Shown here one piece after another: positions 37,247 to 47,248 of a stretch of DNA of 64,000 nt. Location: the NCBI RefSeq assembly GCF_000744815.1, contig NZ_JQMQ01000005.1, forward strand, positions 3,170,055 to 3,234,054, in the 5' to 3' direction. Position numbers and translations under genes: made by a program. This stretch comes from Phaeacidiphilus oryzae TH49 (GTDB taxonomy: Bacteria; Actinomycetota; Actinomycetes; Streptomycetales; Streptomycetaceae). The notes beneath the pieces are model-generated. The model was not told the DNA's origin. It saw only the letters and a list, made by a program, of their open reading frames with translations, and searched no databases. Every line of letters begins with the position of its first letter. Within the stretch, counting starts at the first letter, position 1.

Positions 37247-38686
37247 ATGCGTTCGTCCGTCGATCAGGTACGCCGCCTCGTGGCGACTCCGTTGCCCGGC
37301 CCGCCCGGCAAGGAACTGGGCGAACTCCGCCTGCCGCTGCCCTCGGCGCTGTCCCGGCTCGACTGGTGCCCGGCCGCCCAGCAGCCCCCCTGGCCGGACC
37401 CCGAGGCCCTGCATGAGGTGCGGAGCGAACTCGCCGGACTTCCCCCGCTGGTCTTCGCCGGCGAATGCGACCAGCTGCGGGAACGCCTCGCCGCGGTCTC
37501 CCGGGGACAGGCCTTCCTGCTGATGGGCGGGGACTGCGCGGAGGCCTTCGACGCCGTCACCGCGGACCGGGTCCAGGCCAAGCTGAAGACACTGCTGCAG
37601 ATGGCCGCGGTCCTCACCTACGCGGCCAAGATGCCGGTGGTGAAGGTCGGCAGGATCGCCGGCCAGTACGCCAAGCCGCGCTCCCGGCCCACCGAGACCA
37701 GGAACGGCACCACCCTCCCCGCCTACCGCGGGGACGCGGTCAACGGCCCGGCCTTCACGGCGGCCGACCGCACCCCCGACCCGCGCCGGCTGCTGCGGGC
37801 GTACCAGTCCTCCGCCGCCACCCTGAACCTGATCCGCGCCTACACCGAGGGCGGCTACACCGACCTCCGCCGGCTCGACGCCTGGAACCGGGACTTCGTC
37901 CGCGACTCGCCGGCCGGCCGGCGCTACCGGCGGCTCGCCCGGGAGATCACCGCCGCCCTGGACTTCGTCCAGGCCTGCGGCGCCGACCCCCGCGAGTTCC
38001 GCACCGCCGAGTTCTACTCCTCCCACGAGGCCCTGCTGCTGGACTACGAGTCGGCGCTGACCCGCACCGACTCCCGTACCGGCGAGCTCTACGACGTCTC
38101 CGCCCATCTGCTCTGGATCGGCGAGCGCACCCGCCAACTCGACCACGCCCACGTCGAGTTCGCGTCCAGGATCGGCAACCCGGTCGGCGTGAAGCTGGGG
38201 CCCTCGACGACCCCGGAGGAGGCCCTCGCCCTGATCGCCCGGCTCGATCCGGAGCACGAGCCGGGCCGGCTGGTGCTGATCACCCGGATGGGCGCGGCCC
38301 GGATCCGCGAGGTGCTGCCGCCGCTGGTGGAACGGGTGGCGGCGACGGGCTCGCCCGCGGTGTGGATCTGCGACCCGATGCACGGCAACACCTTCACCGC
38401 CGAGAGCGGCCACAAGACCCGCCGCTTCGACGACGTGCTGGCCGAGGTGGCCGGCTTCTTCGAGGTCCACCGGATGCTCGGCACCCATCCCGGCGGCATC
38501 CACGTCGAGCTGACCGGGGACGACGTCACCGAATGCGTGGGCGGCGGCCGGGAGGTCGCCCTCGGCGACCTCTCCCGGCGCTACGAGACCCTCTGCGACC
38601 CCCGCCTCAACCGCAGCCAGTCCCTCGACCTGGCCTTCCGGCTGGCCGAGCTCCTCGACTCCCCGCCGCCCGCACCCCGGCGGTAG
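37247..38686 (+). CDS. Class II 3-deoxy-D-arabino-heptulosonate-7-phosphate (DAHP) synthase
   Basis: Condenses phosphoenolpyruvate and erythrose-4-phosphate, the first shikimate step. The 479-residue protein has MGGDCAEAF (metal-binding Cys), KVGRIAGQYAKPRS, FYSSHEALLLDYE, GVKLGPSTTPEEAL, ITRMGAARIREVLPPL, CDPMHGNTF and HPGGIHVELTGDDVTEC, all diagnostic of the plant/actinobacterial class II enzyme. A GGAGGGAG site precedes the ATG. It faces the EPSP-synthase/ligase fusion with 26 bp between stop codons. It may be the housekeeping enzyme or a second copy feeding a shikimate-derived product; the window cannot tell. Confidence 0.95.
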   Translation: MRSSVDQVRRLVATPLPGPPGKELGELRLPLPSALSRLDWCPAAQQPPWPDPEALHEVRSELAGLPPLVFAGECDQLRERLAAVSRGQAFLLMGGDCAEAFDAVTADRVQAKLKTLLQMAAVLTYAAKMPVVKVGRIAGQYAKPRSRPTETRNGTTLPAYRGDAVNGPAFTAADRTPDPRRLLRAYQSSAATLNLIRAYTEGGYTDLRRLDAWNRDFVRDSPAGRRYRRLAREITAALDFVQACGADPREFRTAEFYSSHEALLLDYESALTRTDSRTGELYDVSAHLLWIGERTRQLDHAHVEFASRIGNPVGVKLGPSTTPEEALALIARLDPEHEPGRLVLITRMGAARIREVLPPLVERVAATGSPAVWICDPMHGNTFTAESGHKTRRFDDVLAEVAGFFEVHRMLGTHPGGIHVELTGDDVTECVGGGREVALGDLSRRYETLCDPRLNRSQSLDLAFRLAELLDSPPPAPRR

Positions 38687-38712: not shown

Positions 38713-41700
38713 CTACCCCGCCGGCTCCGCCGCGAGCTCGCGGAGGGCGTACTTCTGGACCTTGCCGGCCGCGTTGCGCGGCAGCCGGTCGAGCGTCTCC
38801 AGCCGTTCCGGCCAGTACTGCTTGGCCATCCGCCGGCCGTCCAGGAAGGTGCGGAGCTGATCCAGCGTCAGCGTCCCCGCGCCCGGCCGCAGGGCGACGA
38901 ACGCGCAGGCCCGCTCGCCCAGCCGGGGATCCGGCATGGCGACCACCGCCGCCTCCGCCACCGAGGGGTGCTCGTGGAGCAGCTGCTCGATCTCCGCGAC
39001 CGGGAGCTTCTCCCCGCCCCGGTTGATGACGTCCTTGACCCGTCCGGTGATCCGCAGGAAGCCGCTCTCGTCGACGGCCGCCAGATCCCCGGTGCGGTAC
39101 CAACCGTCCTTGGTGAAGGCCTCCGCGGTGAGGTCCGGCCGCTCCAGGTAGCCCTGGAAGACCGTCGGCCCGCGGAGCTCGAAGTTGCCCTCCTGGCCGG
39201 CCGGCAGCTCCCGCCCCTCGTCGTCGGTGATCCGCAGCCGTACGCCGTCCAGCGCCCTGCCGTCCGTGCCCCAGCGCAGCGCCGGGTCGTCGGCGGGCGA
39301 GGCCAGCGCGCCGAGGCAGGTCTCGGTGGTGCCGAAGGCCCCGCAGACCGCGGCGCCGAGCACCCGGGTGGCGCGCTCGGCGAGCCCGCGCGGGACGGCG
39401 GCCCCGGTGGCCACGAAGATCCGCAGCGAGCGCACCGACTCCGGCCCGTCCGGCTGCTCCTCCACGGCCCGCACCAGATCGGCCAGGAACGGCGTGGCCG
39501 CCTGGACGAAGCTCACCCGGTGCTCGCGGACCGCCCGCAGCCCGGCCGCCGGATCCCACTCCGGCTGCACCACCATCGGGACGCCCAACTCCAGCGCCAG
39601 CCACATCCCGTAGAGGAAACCGGTCTGGTGGGCCAGCGGGGAGGGCACCCAGACCACGTCCGAGCGGTCCAGGCCGAGGTGCCGGATCTCCATCGCGGCC
39701 GCCCGGCTGAGGGTGCCGGCGGTGTGCAGCACGCCCTTGGGCCGGCCCGAGGTGCCGGAGGTGAAGAGCAGCTGGGCGGGCGCGTCCGGCGCCGGCCGCA
39801 GCGCGTCCAGTTCCTCGCGGGTCCGCTGATCGACCGTCACCTCGGCCAGCGCCTCGTCCCAGTGCCGCCAGATCAGGCCGCCGCCGGAGGGCAGCGCGCC
39901 CGGCCGGCCGCCGGGTCCCGACGGCAGCACCAGTACCTGCTCAAGGCCGGCCAGTTCGTCCGCCGGCAGCCCGGCGACCTCCTCGGCCGGCCGCCGGCCC
40001 CGGTACCCGTCGGCCACCACCAGCACCCGCGCCTGCGAGCGCCGTAGGATGTCCCCGACCTCCCGCTCCCGGAAGATCGGCATGATCGGGCAGCAGACCG
40101 CCCCGATCCGCAGCACGGCCAGCGACAGCACGGCGAACTCCAGCCGGTTCGGCAGCTGGTACGCCACCCGCTCCCCCGGCCGCACCCCGAGCCGGCGCAG
40201 CAGCTCGGCCGCCCGGTCGCTGCGCTCGGCCAGCTCCCGCCAGGTCAGCCGACCCTCCTCGGCGCCCGCCAGGTCCGCGCGGTCCGCCCGGTCCGCGCGG
40301 TCGGCGTGGTCGACGCGGTCGACGCGGTCGGCGCGGACCTCCACCACCGCGGTCTCGTCCGGGCGCGAGCGGGCACGCCGGGCCACCCACTCCGGCAGCC
40401 CGATCCCGGCGGCCCTGCCTGGACGCAGCAGCTCCGGCTCCAGTCCGCCGCCGGCGCCGGACGGCCGCTTCCCGGACTCCACCGACATCGGCAGCCCGAG
40501 GGCGTTCATCGCCTCCAGGAACCGCGGGTACGAGATCCGGTAGGCGTTGGGGTAGGTCAGGGTGGACGGCCCCTCGGCCCGGGACGCGGCCACCGCGAGG
40601 GACATCAGCACCCGGTGGTCGTTGAAGGAGGAGAGCGGCGCCCCCCGCAGCCGGCGCCTCCGCCCGACCCCGGCCACCCGCAGCGCGTCCCCGTCCAGGC
40701 GGAGCTCCCCGCCCATGGCGTTCAGCTGGAGCATCGCGGCGGCCCGGTCGGACTCCTTGAGGCGGGTGTGGGCGACATGCCGGAAGACGGTCTCGCCCTC
40801 GGCGAAGCAGGCCATCGCGGAGAGCACCGGCAGCATGTCCGGGACGTCCCGGCAGTCCACGTCGGTGCCCTTGAGCGGCGTCCCGTCGTGCCGGATCCGG
40901 ACCGCCCGCTCCCCCGCCCGGCCCTGGCCGGCGGGCAGGTCGACCAGCTCCATCGGGACGCCCATCCCGGCGGCGAGCTCCAGGAAGTGCACCTCGGGGT
41001 GGTCGGCGGGCCCGCCGGTCAGCCGGTCCAGGCCGCGCAGCAGCACGTCCGCCGGGTGGACGGCGGCGGCGGCGATGCCGAAGGCGGCCGAGCCGATGTC
41101 CGGCGGCAGGGTCAGCTCGGTGGGCCGGGCGCGCTGGTCCGGCTCGATCTCGAACCGCCGCCAGTCCGCGGACACCCCGACCTCCAGGCCGAACCGGCGC
41201 ATCATGGCGACCGTCAGCTCCAGGTAGGTCCGCTCGTTGAGCACCCCCTCCACCTCGACCACGGTCGGCCCGGTGGCGAAGGGCGCCAGCAGGATCAGCC
41301 CGGAGATCCACTGCGAGAGGGTCCCGGCGATCCGCACCCGGCCGCCCTTCGGCCGCCCGGCCGACACCAGCACCGGCGGGCAGTCGTCCGGCGACTCGAC
41401 GCCGACGCCCATCTGCCGCAGCCCGGCCAGCAGCGGCCCCACCGGCCGGCGGCGGAAGTACTTCTGCCCGGTGACCGAGACCGGCCGATCGGAGAGCGCG
41501 GCCAGGCCCAGCATGAAGTACAGCGTGGTGCCGGAACTGCCGGCCGAGACCTCGGACCTGCGGGGGTGGTAGGTGCCGCCCAGCCCCTCCACCACGAAGG
41601 TGTCGCCCTCCACCCGGACCCCCACCCCGAGCCCGCGCAGCAGCCTCACGGTGTACTGCACATGGCGGGCGTCGGAGAGCCCGCGGATCCGGCTGGTGCC

Positions 41701-41811
41701 GTCGGCGAGCGAGGCCAGGATCAGTGCCCGGTGGGCGTGGTACTTGGAGTTGGGGACCAGGACCTCTCCGGTGACGCGGCGCTCACTGCCGCCGTTGACC
41801 AGCAGGTGCAT
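38713..41811 (-). CDS. Fusion: EPSP-synthase-like domain + acyl-CoA ligase (candidate cyclic-carboxyl-CoA biosynthesis enzyme)
   Basis: A 1032-residue protein. Residues 1-445 have the EPSP-synthase fold. Kept relative to E. coli AroA: K23, R28, R122, S166, Q167, D325, K352, R356, R400. Changed: Ser23 is Y24, Asn94 is S92, Arg100 is Y98, Ser169 is L165, Asn336 is H348, and the Lys411 position is replaced. Residues 463-1032 are an ANL-type ligase with TSGTSGRPKG (684-693), FGTTETC, YRTGDLA, GRVKDVINRGGEK and the C-terminal AAGKVQK lysine, close to cyclohexanecarboxylate-CoA ligases. A related EPSP-synthase homologue works in cyclohexanecarboxyl-CoA pathways of ansatrienin/phoslactomycin producers (established, from memory). 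No ChcA-type reductase is nearby. ATG 41811 follows AAGGGAG. Confidence 0.85.
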   Translation of the reverse strand: MHLLVNGGSERRVTGEVLVPNSKYHAHRALILASLADGTSRIRGLSDARHVQYTVRLLRGLGVGVRVEGDTFVVEGLGGTYHPRRSEVSAGSSGTTLYFMLGLAALSDRPVSVTGQKYFRRRPVGPLLAGLRQMGVGVESPDDCPPVLVSAGRPKGGRVRIAGTLSQWISGLILLAPFATGPTVVEVEGVLNERTYLELTVAMMRRFGLEVGVSADWRRFEIEPDQRARPTELTLPPDIGSAAFGIAAAAVHPADVLLRGLDRLTGGPADHPEVHFLELAAGMGVPMELVDLPAGQGRAGERAVRIRHDGTPLKGTDVDCRDVPDMLPVLSAMACFAEGETVFRHVAHTRLKESDRAAAMLQLNAMGGELRLDGDALRVAGVGRRRRLRGAPLSSFNDHRVLMSLAVAASRAEGPSTLTYPNAYRISYPRFLEAMNALGLPMSVESGKRPSGAGGGLEPELLRPGRAAGIGLPEWVARRARSRPDETAVVEVRADRVDRVDHADRADRADRADLAGAEEGRLTWRELAERSDRAAELLRRLGVRPGERVAYQLPNRLEFAVLSLAVLRIGAVCCPIMPIFREREVGDILRRSQARVLVVADGYRGRRPAEEVAGLPADELAGLEQVLVLPSGPGGRPGALPSGGGLIWRHWDEALAEVTVDQRTREELDALRPAPDAPAQLLFTSGTSGRPKGVLHTAGTLSRAAAMEIRHLGLDRSDVVWVPSPLAHQTGFLYGMWLALELGVPMVVQPEWDPAAGLRAVREHRVSFVQAATPFLADLVRAVEEQPDGPESVRSLRIFVATGAAVPRGLAERATRVLGAAVCGAFGTTETCLGALASPADDPALRWGTDGRALDGVRLRITDDEGRELPAGQEGNFELRGPTVFQGYLERPDLTAEAFTKDGWYRTGDLAAVDESGFLRITGRVKDVINRGGEKLPVAEIEQLLHEHPSVAEAAVVAMPDPRLGERACAFVALRPGAGTLTLDQLRTFLDGRRMAKQYWPERLETLDRLPRNAAGKVQKYALRELAAEPAG
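40270..40332 (-). repeat. 9-bp coding repeats (Ala-Asp-Arg) inside the ligase domain
   Basis: About seven 9-bp units code for ADR/VDR/VDH triplets at residues 494-514 of the fusion protein. They lengthen a surface loop early in the ligase domain, between ETAVVEV and RLTWRELAER, where relatives have only a few residues. Confidence 0.75.
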
Positions 41812-41850
41812 AGACGCTGATGCTCCCTTCACTGATGACTCGGGTACCGG

Positions 41851-42225
41851 TCAGTTGCCGCCCAGCCGGCTGCTCGCCACTGCCGCGCAGAGCATCAGCG
41901 TCCCGCTCGCCAGAGTGGCGGCGAGGCACCGCGCCCGCAGCTGCCGGTAGCGGTCGCCGTACTCCTGGCGCAGTTCCTCGGCCCGGCGCAGCACACCGGA
42001 GTTGGCGTCCCGGTAGACCTCGATCCGGTCTCGGACGTAGACCCGCTGCACGTCCTCCCGCTGGCCGGTGGTCAGCCAGGGCAGCTGGGCGGTGAACCGG
42101 TCGGCGCCCCGCTTGGCCTCCTCATGGTGGGCGGCGAAGAGGAGATAGCCCTCCAGCTCGACCATCCCCCGCTCGGTGAGGCCCTCGGCGGGCGCCGGCC
42201 GCCGGCGCTCCGGTTCGGCCGCCAC
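41851..42225 (-). CDS. Small membrane-anchored protein in the ctaD operon
   Basis: A 124-residue protein with no family that I recognise. The soluble part is helical and charged (GYLLFAAHHEEAKRGADRFTAQLPWLTTGQREDVQRVYVRDRIEVYRDANSGVLRRAEELRQEYGDRYRQLRARC), then one C-terminal helix CLAATLASGTLMLCAAVA, so it is likely tail-anchored. GTG start 3 bp after the ctaD stop, so it is co-translated with cytochrome oxidase subunit I and may help assemble or regulate it. Confidence 0.75.
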   Translation of the reverse strand: MAAEPERRRPAPAEGLTERGMVELEGYLLFAAHHEEAKRGADRFTAQLPWLTTGQREDVQRVYVRDRIEVYRDANSGVLRRAEELRQEYGDRYRQLRARCLAATLASGTLMLCAAVASSRLGGN

Positions 42226-42228
42226 GGC

Positions 42229-44139
42229 TCAGGCCTTCGGGCTCTCGCCAGGGCCGCCGGGCCGCTCCGGGCCGCCGTGCGGACCGCCCTCAGGATCGGT
42301 GGCTCCGCCGCGAGTGGTGCCGCGGGGAGCGGTGCCGCCGGGAGTGGTGCCACGGGCAGTGGTGCCGCGGGGGCCGGGAGTGGCCTCGCCGGCCGACGCC
42401 CCGGCACCCGTGCCCATGCTCGCGCCCGCCCCCGCGTTCGCGCCCGACAGCGCCGGCTCGCCGAGCCCGCGCTCCAGCATGGCGATCTCCGGGTGGTGGA
42501 GGTCGAAGGCCGGGGATTCGGAGCGGATCCGGGGCAGCGAGGTGAAGTTGTGCCGCGGCGGCGGGCAGGAGGTCGCCCACTCCAGCGAGCGGCCGAACCC
42601 CCAGGGGTCGTCCTCGGTGACCCGCTTGCCGTACTTGGCGGTCTTCCAGACGTTGTAGAGGAACGGCAGCATCGAGATGCCGAGGAGGAAGGACCCGAGG
42701 GTGGAGACGGTGTTCAGGGTGGTGAAGCCGTCCGCCGCGAGGTAGTCCGCGTACCGCCGGGGCATGCCGACCACGCCGAGCCAGTGCTGCACCAGGAAGG
42801 TGGTGTGGAAGCCGATGAAGAGGGTCCAGAAGGTGATCTTGCCGAGCCGCTCGTCCAGCATCTTCCCGGTCATCTTCGGCCACCAGAAGTGGAAGCCGGC
42901 GAACATCGCGAAGACCACGGTGCCGAAGACCACGTAGTGGAAGTGCGCCACCACGAAGTAGGAGTCCGAGACGTGGAAGTCCAGCGGCGGGCAGGCCAGC
43001 AGAACGCCCGTCAGACCGCCGAAGAGGAAGGTCATCAGGAAGCCCCAGGTCCACAGCATCGGTGTCTCGAAACTGAGTGACCCCTTCCACATCGTGCCGA
43101 CCCAGTTGAAGAACTTCACCCCGGTGGGCACCGCGATCAGGAAGGTCATGAAGGAGAAGAACGGCAGCAGCACCGCGCCCGTGACGTACATGTGGTGCGC
43201 CCACACCGTCACCGACAGCCCGGCGATGGCGATCGTCGCGGCCACCAGCCCCGAGTAGCCGAAGATCGGCTTGCGGGCGAAGACCGGGATCACCTCGGTG
43301 ACGATGCCGAAGAACGGCAGGGCGATGATGTAGACCTCGGGATGGCCGAAGAACCAGAAGAGGTGCTGCCAGAGGATCGGGCCGCCGTTGGCCGGATCGA
43401 AGACGTGCGCCCCGAACTTCCGGTCCGCCTCCAGCGCCAGCAGGATCCCGGCCAGCGGCGGGAAGGCGAAGAGCACCAGGATCGACGTGATGAAGACGTT
43501 CCAGCTGAAGATCGGCATCCGGAACATCGTCATCCCGGGGGCGCGCATGCAGATGACGGTCGTGATGAAGTTGACCGCGCCCATGATGGTGCCGAAGCCG
43601 GACATCCCGAGGCCCAGGATCCACATGTCCGGTCCGACCCCGGTCGAGTGCTGGGCGTCGGAGAGCGGGGAGTAGGCGAACCAGCCGAAGTCGGCCGCGC
43701 CCTGCGGGGTGAGGAAGCCCCCGACGGCGATCAGCGAGCCGAACAGGTACAGCCAGTAGGCCAGCATGTTCAACCGCGGGAAGGCCACGTCCGGAGCGCC
43801 GATCTGCAGCGGCATGATCCAGTTCGTGAACCCGGAGAAGAGCGGGGTGGCGAACATCAGCAGCATGATCGTGCCATGCATGGTGAAGGCCTGGTTGAAC
43901 TGCTCGTCCGTGAGGAACTGCAGCCCCGGACGGGCCAGTTCGGCCCGCATCAGCAGCGCGAGCACACCGCCGACGAGGAAGAAGCCGAAGGAGGTGATGA
44001 GATAGAGCGAGCCGATGGTCTTGTGGTCGGTGGTGGTCAGCCACTTCACCAGGACCGTTCCCAGCTTGTCCCGGGCCGGCGGATGGCCGCCGCCGTCCCC
44101 GGCCGGGGCGCGGACAGTCTGATCAAAGGTTGTCATCAA
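42229..44139 (-). CDS. ctaD: Cytochrome c oxidase subunit I (aa3 type), stand-alone copy with an extended C-terminus
   Basis: A 636-residue, 12-helix haem-copper oxidase subunit. Present: MHGTIM haem-a histidine, [10 protein letters not shown]-channel motif, GHPEVY with the cross-linked His-Tyr, WAHHMYVTG CuB ligands and [10 protein letters not shown] haem ligands. After about residue 565 it has a low-complexity tail (repeats like [15 protein letters not shown]) not found in typical CtaD. The neighbours lack ctaC, ctaE and ctaF, so this seems to be a second copy outside the main operon, co-transcribed with a small membrane protein. The promoter should be in 44140-44349. Confidence 0.95.
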
Positions 44140-44349
44140 TCTCTCCCACCGACACCGACACCGCCGCGCCGGTCCTCAAGTCGCCGACGGCCCTCCGTTG
44201 GCCGTCCGTTCCCGGCCGCTTTCGCATCTCGGTGCCACCATCACGTTTCCGACCCGTCCGGCGCACTCCGGCACGGCGTCCCACCCCCCTTGCGGTGGTA
44301 CGTGTTCACCCGCTCGGCCCTGACCCCGGCGTGCCGTGCTGACAGGCCA
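44140..44349. other. Intergenic region between ctaD and the CDF transporter gene
   Basis: 210 bp upstream of ctaD and downstream of the CDF gene. I see no gene, repeat or clear promoter. Confidence 0.5.
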
Positions 44350-45312
44350 TCAGCCTTCCGCTGACGCGCCGCCAGTTTCGTTGCCTGACACGTTCGAACG
44401 ACCCGGTGTCGGATCCAGGAACACCCGGGCGATGGACGGGTGGCGCTCGCGCAGCATCCGCTCCGCCTCGTCGCACAGCCGCTCGATCTCGGCGGCCGTC
44501 TCCGCGTCCCGGAAGTCCACCTTGGCCGCGACCAGCACCTCGTGCCGCCCCTGCACCGCCGTGACCAGCTCCAGGACCTCCTCCACCCCCGGGAGGGCCG
44601 CCAACTCCCCGGCGAGCGCCCGCTCCATCCGGTCCGGGAGGGCGCGCCCGATCAGCATGGACGCGTTGCTGCGGCCCAGTTCGACGGCGACCGCGGTGAG
44701 GAGGACGCCGATGCAGATCGAGGCCACCCCGTCCCAGACCCCCGAGCCGGTCAGCTGACCGGCCAGCAGGCCCCCCGCCGCCAGCACCAGCCCGATCAGA
44801 GCGGCCGTGTCCTCCAGCACCACCGCCTTCACCGTGGTGTCGGGGGTACGGCGCAGATGGCGGAGGGCGGGCACGTCGAGGCCGGCGGCCTCGCCGCGCA
44901 CCTGGCGCACCCCGCGCAGCAGCGAGGTCCCCTCCAGCACGAAGGAGACGGCGAGGACGATGTACGAGACCAGCGGCGAGCCCAGTTCCTCGCCCTGGAC
45001 CAGGGTGTGGATCCCGTCGTAGAAGGAGAAGACGGCGCCGCCGACGAAGGTGGCGACGGAGGCCAGCATCGCCCAGACGTAGAGCGCCTGCCCGTAGCCC
45101 AGCGGATGGGCGTCGTCGGGCGGGCGCTCGCTGGTCTTCAGCGCGGTGAAGAGGAGCACCTCGGTCACCGTGTCGGCGACCGAGTGCGCCGCCTCGGAGA
45201 GCATCGCGCTCGATCCGCTGACGATCCCCCCGATCGCCTTCGCGACGGCGATCCCCAGATTCATCGTCCCGGCGAGCAGGACGGTCCCCACACTCTCGGT
45301 CTCTTCGGCCAC
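44350..45312 (-). CDS. Cation diffusion facilitator (CDF) metal exporter
   Basis: A 320-residue inner-membrane exporter for divalent metals in exchange for protons. Six helices; the TM2 metal motif is SEAAHSVADTVTE, the TM5 motif VVLEDTAALIG, and a cytoplasmic C-terminal domain of the ZT_dimer type (LPGVEEVLELVTAVQGRHEVLVAAKVDF) follows. The metal (Zn, Fe, Co or Mn) is not predictable. The start is GTG 45312; upstream in-frame codons are the repeat array and not protein. Confidence 0.9.
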   Translation of the reverse strand: MAEETESVGTVLLAGTMNLGIAVAKAIGGIVSGSSAMLSEAAHSVADTVTEVLLFTALKTSERPPDDAHPLGYGQALYVWAMLASVATFVGGAVFSFYDGIHTLVQGEELGSPLVSYIVLAVSFVLEGTSLLRGVRQVRGEAAGLDVPALRHLRRTPDTTVKAVVLEDTAALIGLVLAAGGLLAGQLTGSGVWDGVASICIGVLLTAVAVELGRSNASMLIGRALPDRMERALAGELAALPGVEEVLELVTAVQGRHEVLVAAKVDFRDAETAAEIERLCDEAERMLRERHPSIARVFLDPTPGRSNVSGNETGGASAEG

Positions 45313-45373
45313 TCCCGCAGTATCCCCGCGCCGGGCGGTTCCCGCCGAGTGGGCCGCGCCCGGAAGCCGGGCC

Positions 45374-45470
45374 GGGAACCGGACTTGGGGCCGGAACCGG
45401 GCTTGGGCCTGGGCCCGGAACCGGGCTTGGGCCCGGAACCGGGCTTGGGCCCGGAACCGCAACCGGCCCG
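45374..45470. repeat. 18-bp tandem repeats upstream of the CDF gene
   Basis: About five copies of CCGGAACCGGGCTTGGGC in the 184-bp gap between the CDF gene and hmp, one with a 6-bp insertion (GGCCTG). It overlaps the region where the CDF promoter should be, so copy number could alter expression. Confidence 0.85.
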
Positions 45471-45496
45471 GGCCCTGCGTTCACCGGCCGTACGGC

Positions 45497-46702
45497 TCAC
45501 GCCGCCCCGAGGGCCTCCGCGTCCGGCCCGAAGACCTCGTAGTGGATGTCCGCCGGCGAGACCCCCGCCTCCAGCAGCTGCCCGCGCACGGCCCGCATGA
45601 ACGGCACCGGCCCGCACAGGTACACCACACTGTCCGACGGCACCGCCACCTGGGAGAGGTCCACAAAGCCGGACCGGGCCCCCACTCCCTCGGCGCCGGC
45701 CCGGTACCAGACCTCAAGACGGCCGTCCGCCAGCTTCTCGACCAGCCGCGCGACCTCCTCGCGGAAGGCGTGGCTCTCCGGGTCCTCGTCACCGTGGACG
45801 ACCAGCACCGGACGCCGGGTGCCGGTACCGGCGAGCTGCTCCAGCATCCCCACCATCGGGGTGCACCCGATGCCCGCAGAGGCCAGCACCACCGGCCGCC
45901 CCACAGCCCCGGCGGCATCCGCGCCACCGGTCCCGTTCTCGTCCAGCACGATGTCGCCGAACGGGGCACTCAGCTCGATCTCCTGACCGGCCGTCAGCCG
46001 GTCCTGCAGCCAGGCGGAGACCTCGCCGTCCCGCTTCACCGTGAACTGCAGCCCGCCCTCGGGCCACCCCGAGAGGCTGTACTGCCGGATCTGCCGCGCC
46101 CCGTCCTCCAGCGGCACCCGCACCGAGACGTACTGCCCGGCCCGGGCCGCCGGCACCGGCCCGCCGTCCGCCGGACGCACCACGAAGGTCGTCACGGACG
46201 GCGTCTCCGACTGCCGCGCGGCCACCCGCCAGCGCCGCCACACCTCGCCGTCGGCGACCCCGGCCTGCCGGTAGAGCCCCTGCTCGATGGCGATCAGCGC
46301 GTTGGCCATCAGCCAGTACACCTCGTCCCAGGCCGCGGCGACCTCCGGGGTGACGGCGTCGCCGAGCACCTCGACTATCGCGGCGAAGAGGTGCTCGTGG
46401 ACGATCGGGTACTGGTCGGCGGTGATGCCGAGCGAGGCGTGCTTGTGGGCGATCCGCGCCAGCATGGTGTCCGGCCGCCGCTCGGGGTCGGCCACCAGCG
46501 CGCTCGCGAACGCCGCGATCGAGGCGGCGAGCGCCTGCCGCTGGCTGCCGTTGGCCTGGTTGCCGCGGTTGAAGAGGTCGCGCAGCAGCTCCGGGTGGGC
46601 GGCGAAGAGCCGTCCGTAGAACCGCCCGGTGATCTCCTCGATGGCACCGCCCACCACCGGCAGGGTGGCACGTACGACCTCGGTCGACTTCTCCGACAGC
46701 AT
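45497..46702 (-). CDS. hmp: Flavohaemoglobin (nitric oxide dioxygenase)
   Basis: Converts NO and O2 to nitrate using NADPH. The 401-residue protein has a globin domain (1-140; proximal-side HKHASLGITADQYPIVHEHLF), a ferredoxin-reductase-like FAD domain (RQYSLSGWPEGGLQFTVKR) and an NAD(P)-binding domain (LASAGIGCTPMVGML ... YLCGPVPFM). ATG 46702 follows GGAGGAA; the seven-codon upstream extension lies in the operator. An NsrR-type palindrome covers -12 to -36 from the start codon, and nsrR is the next gene upstream on the same strand. Confidence 0.95.
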   Translation of the reverse strand: MLSEKSTEVVRATLPVVGGAIEEITGRFYGRLFAAHPELLRDLFNRGNQANGSQRQALAASIAAFASALVADPERRPDTMLARIAHKHASLGITADQYPIVHEHLFAAIVEVLGDAVTPEVAAAWDEVYWLMANALIAIEQGLYRQAGVADGEVWRRWRVAARQSETPSVTTFVVRPADGGPVPAARAGQYVSVRVPLEDGARQIRQYSLSGWPEGGLQFTVKRDGEVSAWLQDRLTAGQEIELSAPFGDIVLDENGTGGADAAGAVGRPVVLASAGIGCTPMVGMLEQLAGTGTRRPVLVVHGDEDPESHAFREEVARLVEKLADGRLEVWYRAGAEGVGARSGFVDLSQVAVPSDSVVYLCGPVPFMRAVRGQLLEAGVSPADIHYEVFGPDAEALGAA

Positions 46703-46713
46703 CCTGTTCCTCC

Positions 46714-46738
46714 AAATTGTCATTTCAGATGCCGATTT
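46714..46738. promoter_or_regulatory. NsrR-type operator of hmp
   Basis: An imperfect palindrome centred at 46726: AAATTGTCATTT - C - AGATGCCGATTT, 16 of 24 arm positions symmetric, the 11-bp-arms/1-bp-centre form known for S. coelicolor NsrR. A nearly identical copy stands before nsrR. Confidence 0.8.
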
Positions 46739-46801
46739 TCCGGCGTTCCGGGCTCCCCCAGAAGGGCCGGCCGGCCCCGCGGGCCCCGCCCGACCGGGCC
46801 C

Positions 46802-47248
46802 TCAGACGCGCACCGGCAGCCCCAGCAGCACGGGGCCGGCCGGCCCCTCCACCAGGTCCGCCAGCGTCACCGCGTCCAGCGAGGCGTAGAAGGCCTCCTG
46901 CGCCTTGCGGAGCTCGGCTCTCAGCCGGCAGGCGGCGCGAAGCGGGCACGGGTCCTCGCCCTCGCAGCCGACCACGTCCCCCTCCCCCTCCAACTCCCTC
47001 ACCAGCGAGCCGATCGCGACGGTCCGCCCGGCCCTGGTGAGGACGAGGCCCCCGCCGCGCCCGCGCGTCGCCTCGACCACGCCGAGCCGCCGCAGTCGCG
47101 CGACCACCTTCGCCGCATGCGAGTACGGCACTCCGACCGCCTCGGCCACCTGCTCGGTGGTGACGGTCTCCGGCGCGTCGAGCACCGCCAGGCGCATGGC
47201 GATGCGCAGGGCGATGTCGGTTCCCTTCGTCAACCTCACACAGAACAT
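46802..47248 (-). CDS. nsrR: NsrR, Rrf2-family nitric-oxide-sensing repressor
   Basis: A 148-residue Rrf2 protein: winged HTH at the N-terminus (RLTKGTDIALRIAMRLAVLDAPETVTTEQVAEAVGVPYSHAAKVVARLRRLGVVEATRG) and three cluster cysteines with the NsrR spacing C-x5-C-x5-C (GCEGEDPCPLRAAC), which bind a 4Fe-4S cluster that reacts with NO. The start may be ATG 47248 or the GTG three codons on. It has its own NsrR box and lies 99 bp upstream of hmp: a self-regulated NO response. Confidence 0.94.
   Translation of the reverse strand: MFCVRLTKGTDIALRIAMRLAVLDAPETVTTEQVAEAVGVPYSHAAKVVARLRRLGVVEATRGRGGGLVLTRAGRTVAIGSLVRELEGEGDVVGCEGEDPCPLRAACRLRAELRKAQEAFYASLDAVTLADLVEGPAGPVLLGLPVRV

Follow-up and report, generated by a model that had tools for sequence, protein, structure and literature searches.

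The window, as the whole 64-kb stretch of DNA analysed is called here, has a G+C content of 73.5% and carries a fused EPSP-synthase-like/acyl-CoA ligase gene of the PlmJK type on its minus strand (38713 to 41811). The gene is one intact ORF of 1032 aa, which starts with an ATG at 41811 and whose stop codon ends at 38713; an in-frame GTG at 41832 is a less likely start, because the sequence AAGGGAG sits 11 bases before the ATG. Convergent with the fusion across a gap of 26 bases lies a second class II DAHP synthase gene (37247 to 38686, plus strand; 479 aa), which probably contributes to shikimate supply.

The protein comprises an EPSP-synthase-fold half (residues 1-441; 40489 to 41811, minus strand), recognized by Pfam, structure match and alignment to AroA, and an ANL acyl-CoA ligase half (residues 462-1029; 38725 to 40428, minus strand), in which the motifs TSGTSGRPKG, YRTGDL and GKVQK are intact. 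Pfam places EPSP_synthase at residues 11-435 (6e-79), AMP-binding at 506-889 (2e-73) and AMP-binding_C at 940-1017. The NCBIfam aroA equivalog TIGR01356 matches 40495 to 41769 (residues 15-439) with 297.6 bits against a cut-off of 287.25, and the top NCBIfam match of the ligase half is TIGR03208, at 451.1 bits and so far below its equivalog cut-off of 792.3. An AlphaFold2 model built from 35 aligned family members has a mean pLDDT of 87.9 and a pTM of 0.62, with pLDDT below 50 next to the active site (residues 349-351) and in the linkers 447-455 and 497-518. Modelled residues 1-441 match S3P-bound EPSP synthases (Z about 46, rmsd 2.2-2.3 Å) and have the EPSP synthase fold, while residues 462-1029 match ANL ligases, for example CahJ (Z 44.5, 2.7 Å). 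An earlier note on this DNA had described one 1032-residue protein that joins an AroA-like domain to an ANL ligase, and ORF, Pfam, NCBIfam and model all bear this out. The same note had considered that two genes might be joined by a sequencing error; this is ruled out by 71 full-length single-ORF fusions, namely 69 from the best 80 of 177 related loci, the window copy and its paralogue.

The Pfam scans took in 30 ORFs of the window, nearly all to the right of 19.4 kb, and the part to the left of 19.4 kb was examined by tblastn for partner genes of cyclohexanecarboxyl-CoA (CHC-CoA) formation. A minus-strand row at 42229 to 47248 encodes a COX1-type oxidase, a cation efflux protein, a flavohaemoglobin and an Rrf2-type regulator, a set that suggests a group for nitric-oxide or respiratory stress. 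Between the COX1-type oxidase and the fusion lies an ORF of 124 aa (41851 to 42225) with no Pfam match. The neighbouring COX1 gene is uninformative as the mark of an insertion site, as four COX1-type genes occur in the genome.

Active site and kinship of the EPSP-synthase-like half

Alignment to E. coli K-12 AroA supports the earlier assignment of K23, R28, R122, D325, K352, R356 and R400 as retained residues. The five losses named alongside them are all real changes (Ser23 to Y24, Asn94 to S92, Arg100 to Y98, Ser169 to L165 and Asn336 to H348), though they are not of equal weight. The position of Asn336 is His in 21 of 25 AroA rows from related genomes, so that H348 is weak evidence, neither distinctive nor the loss of a conserved residue, and the position of Asn94 is variable, with Asn in 15 of the 25. 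Two further changes, S197 to E193 and K411 to I426, had been missed. Ser23, Arg100, Ser169, Ser197 and Lys411 are constant in 25 of 25 AroA rows and are all changed in the window protein.

These changes are a family-wide trait and not peculiar to the window copy. S23Y, N94S, S169L, S197E and K411I occur in 71/71 full-length fusions and in 7/7 split forms, and R100Y in 67/71 and 7/7, respectively (from the best 80 of 177 loci); the window protein bears the family signature as Y24, S92, L165, E193 and I426 in its own numbering. Kept in all fusions and split forms are K22, R27, G96, R124, S170, Q171 and Y200, as well as D313, K340, E341, R344, D384, H385 and R386. What the family has in common with AroA is the fold and most of the catalytic residues, namely K22, R27, R124, D313, E341, R344, H385 and R386; it differs in the replacement of Ser23, Ser169, Ser197 and Lys411, in its separate branch of the tree and in the fused ligase. 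In EPSP synthase, we take S169 and S197 to contact the phosphate of S3P and K411 to contact PEP. Leu, Glu and Ile at these positions argue for an unphosphorylated shikimate and against enolpyruvyl transfer, and from the sequence we infer that the EPSP-synthase-like half of the window protein uses free shikimate. With a signature this constant, one can test how an EPSP synthase fold may have come to do so.

The fusion scores above the NCBIfam aroA cut-off, has an EPSP synthase fold in the model and adjoins a DAHP synthase of the shikimate pathway, all of which would suit a spare aroA whose product still functions as an EPSP synthase and carries an added ligase. Such a reading is nevertheless extremely improbable, given the five changes at positions constant in AroA and the kinship of the protein. 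Its EPSP-synthase-like half shares 27-33% identity with 26 AroA rows, compared with 46-77% for the other 70 fusions and 52-61% for the split forms. In the trees, all of them quick ones made without bootstrap, AroA rows and fused or split rows fall on opposite sides of one branch with a support of 100, and a tree that forces the window protein into one group with the 21 main AroA rows can be rejected (p-AU 4.3e-6). A looser constraint, which groups all 26 AroA rows with the window protein, is not rejected (p-AU 0.234), because it can be satisfied by shifting the point at which AroA attaches, asks only where that point lies and says little on kinship. Five of the 30 comparison rows (L110, L112, L113, L117 and L118) were left out of the AroA set; they are probably MurA, because they group with MurA and have Asn at position 23. 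Furthermore, the genome has four PF00275 matches, which are AroA, a weaker match read as MurA, the window fusion and a second fusion, and the separate housekeeping aroA (contig C5, 2717540), whose absence would have spoken against the reading of the earlier note, is among them. Residues, identity and tree rule out a housekeeping AroA identity, and the claim that the protein is not an EPSP synthase is supported. Since TIGR01356 scores the fusions above its cut-off, genes of this kind may easily receive the wrong name of EPSP synthase.

The fusion family and its gene neighbourhoods

A scan of species genomes gave 177 stretches encoding a relative, of which the best 80 (L008-L087) were analysed; with the window copy and the other copy of its genome they make a set of 82 sequences. 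Of these, 71 are full-length single-ORF fusions, seven consist of two adjacent ORFs (L076, L077, L081 and L083-L086) and four are cut or broken (L059, L060, L066 and L069). The single-chain fusion is the usual form of the family. Among the best 80 of 177, the relatives come from Streptomyces, Kitasatospora, Actinoplanes, Arthrobacter, Cellulomonas and other actinobacteria, and also from bins named Eremiobacterota, Bacillota, Chloroflexi and Gammaproteobacteria. The EPSP-synthase-like/ligase fusion emerges as a broad family whose active-site signature is fixed. The two-ORF loci lie in bins named Gammaproteobacteria, Rubrobacteraceae, Actinobacteria and Chloroflexi, and have the same active-site signature as the fusions. 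Within the bacterial family of the window's own genome, the fusion was found in three of 200 genomes searched (its own included), and a second search of relatives found it in one of 61, its own only; this rarity marks it as an accessory gene. Among plasmid records, 3494 matched the fusion, and none had one place that covered 80% of the query. Plasmid-borne AliA proteins reach 44% identity and match the ligase half only; the cyclohexanecarboxylate-CoA ligase AliA (TIGR03208) and the aryl-acid adenylating enzymes CahJ and FscC all have the ANL fold in common with that half.

Counting only loci with enough downstream DNA from the best 80 of 177, 69 of 71 have a PlmL-like acyl-CoA dehydrogenase gene downstream of the fusion, 52 of 70 an SDR gene and 50 of 67 an FMN oxidoreductase gene. 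All three partners are present in 38 of 67 loci; in 62 of 67, the dehydrogenase is accompanied by one or both of the others. Their order matches plmJK-plmL-chcA-plmM, the CHC-CoA genes of phoslactomycin-type clusters. For lactomycin, Table 2 of PMC5852498 gives the order lmP1/plmJK, lmP2/plmL, lmP3/ChcA and lmP4/plmM, and the text of that paper counts six genes for CHC-CoA. PlmJK, PnP1 and LmP1 of the phoslactomycin and lactomycin clusters are the first CHC-CoA gene, and downstream of the fusion the window family shows this same gene order. The likeness to PlmJK is one of gene name and gene order, as the table describes the product only as 'AMP-dependent synthetase and ligase' (PMC5852498). 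The earlier note had held the fused form to be special; as the usual form of its family, and with a name in the phoslactomycin cluster that suggests it was already known there, it is not.

We found no open paper on the enzymology of the EPSP-synthase-like/ligase fusion. The gene plmJK presumably unites AnsJ and AnsK, separate counterparts in ansatrienin, and the name JK agrees with this. The enzyme type is already known; the remaining interest of the window locus is a stand-alone duplicate beside a duplicate DAHP synthase.

A second fusion and the role of the window copy

Unlike PlmJK, the window copy lies outside a CHC-CoA operon and beside a DAHP synthase; no acyl-CoA dehydrogenase, ChcA-type SDR or FMN oxidoreductase gene was found in the 64-kb window by tblastn. 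The operon is found elsewhere in the genome. A second fusion at 6.81 Mb (C5, 6812312 to 6815650 as the longest ORF), 73% identical to the window copy, is followed on the same strand by genes for an acyl-CoA dehydrogenase, an SDR, an FMN oxidoreductase, a piece of a nucleotide-disulphide oxidoreductase, a ketosynthase and an acyl-CoA ligase. The earlier statement that the usual partner genes are lacking is thus right for the window and wrong for the genome. This region (L007, 987 to 11651; C5, about 6.805-6.816 Mb) looks like a stand-alone operon for a cyclohexyl-acyl chain. Its ketosynthase (L007, 2710 to 3963, minus strand) is 63-82% identical in 13 other loci, and no further copy in the genome exceeds 36% identity to its dehydrogenase or 38% to its SDR.

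The fusion and the class II DAHP synthase each occur twice in the genome, and the two DAHP synthases share 73-74% identity. A second DAHP synthase match was found in one of 16 relatives searched (47%). In eight of the best 80 of 177 loci, too, a class II DAHP synthase is encoded close to the fusion, which fits a role in shikimate supply; that these belong to another subgroup (41-43% identical) counts against the parallel with the window.

The window protein is probably a second copy of a PlmJK-type bifunctional enzyme on the route from shikimate to CHC-CoA, to judge from its sequence. Its EPSP-synthase-like half would bind free shikimate, not shikimate-3-phosphate, and expel water to give a cyclohexadiene carboxylic acid. 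The water loss would be a conjugate elimination. The ligase half, by its family and intact motifs, is then predicted to adenylate this acid and transfer it to CoA, the order of the two steps being presumed. The thioester would proceed to CHC-CoA through the acyl-CoA dehydrogenase, ChcA-type SDR and FMN oxidoreductase of the operon at 6.81 Mb, and the adjoining extra DAHP synthase may raise the shikimate supply to the window fusion. The role of the window copy is most likely that of extra first-step capacity, together with this DAHP synthase. The earlier proposal that one chain alters a shikimate-type acid and activates it with CoA fits, because the gene context of the family points to the shikimate-to-CHC-CoA route.

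Activated ring acids of this kind can start unusual fatty acids or antibiotics. As for the fate of CHC-CoA, the genome holds 14 ketosynthase matches, five clear ones and nine very short, weak pieces. The modular polyketide synthase with a matching CHC loading module that the earlier note had suggested seeking was not seen; the five clear matches fall within open frames no longer than 753 aa. In view of this, CHC-CoA most likely serves as the primer of a fatty-acid-like chain, which the operon ketosynthase would extend to an omega-cyclohexyl acyl product. A review passage on the asukamycin producer names CHC-CoA as a precursor of omega-cyclohexyl fatty acids (PMC4147253). For this genome, cyclohexyl-ended fatty acids or a related chain are predicted.

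It is unlikely that the solo window copy instead makes a different, less reduced ring-CoA for another product. This could be a dihydroxycyclohexadiene or hydroxycyclohexene thioester, and tailoring might then fall to the CoA-transferase, luciferase-like monooxygenase and MpaB-type genes nearby. The missing partner genes in the window would agree with such a product, as would the long branch of the window copy, 0.37 in the tree of 71 fusions compared with 0.15 for the operon copy. Its place in that tree speaks for the preferred reading: its sister group is a set of 19 rows with the operon copy of its own genome and many Streptomyces copies among them (support 97 for the 20 rows), so that it groups with fusions at the head of dehydrogenase, SDR and FMN oxidoreductase operons. 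The two copies are 78.8% identical in the EPSP-synthase-like half and 71.0% in the ligase half; the longer branch and the less similar ligase half make a changed substrate possible. Against this, of 286 columns with an invariance of 95% or more across the other 70 fusions, the window fusion keeps 285 and departs in one (A757G), and with the ligase motifs this argues for the same reaction as the rest of the family. The earlier suggestion of a different starter finds no support here. Nor is there support in the 80 fusion loci (best 80 of 177) for window genes at 27-38 kb as members of the system: the CoA-transferase and MpaB genes were not found there, the luciferase-like gene has weak matches in three and the flavin reductase is found in one.

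A related reading, likewise doubtful, regards the duplicated DAHP synthase and the fusion, as shikimate dehydratase/CoA ligase, as a two-gene module that diverts shikimate, either to a cyclic CoA ester other than CHC-CoA or with first steps controlled separately from the operon copy. A redundant copy in decay with no present role would agree with the longer branch, the partner genes elsewhere and the other complete copy, but is very unlikely given the intact frame of 1032 residues and the near-invariant columns kept.

Solo copies recur, which counts in favour of a different ring-CoA. Of 67 loci with at least 4 kb of downstream DNA among the best 80 of 177, only L021 and L064, from two other Streptomyces, lack every one of the three partners. 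On the other side, the genome of each solo copy also holds an operon-borne copy (L016 and L074 for L021 and L064, L007 for the window). L021 and L064 pair together in the tree and not with the window copy, which suggests more than one origin of solo copies, and, with genes of other biosynthetic clusters around both of them, a solo copy may work towards a different product.

At these two loci (L021, 7193 to 19483; L064, 13135 to 22623), the fusion lies beside a LuxR-type regulator and an alcohol-dehydrogenase-family gene, which we take from its N-terminus to be Ccr. Thioesterase, MFS and P450 genes occur at one or other of them, and both copies possibly lie in a polyketide cluster. The Eremiobacterota bins L024, L025, L026, L030, L031, L048, L053 and L079 have a ketosynthase directly upstream of the fusion, about 38% identical to the L007 ketosynthase, which suggests cyclohexyl fatty acid synthesis in these uncultured Eremiobacterota.
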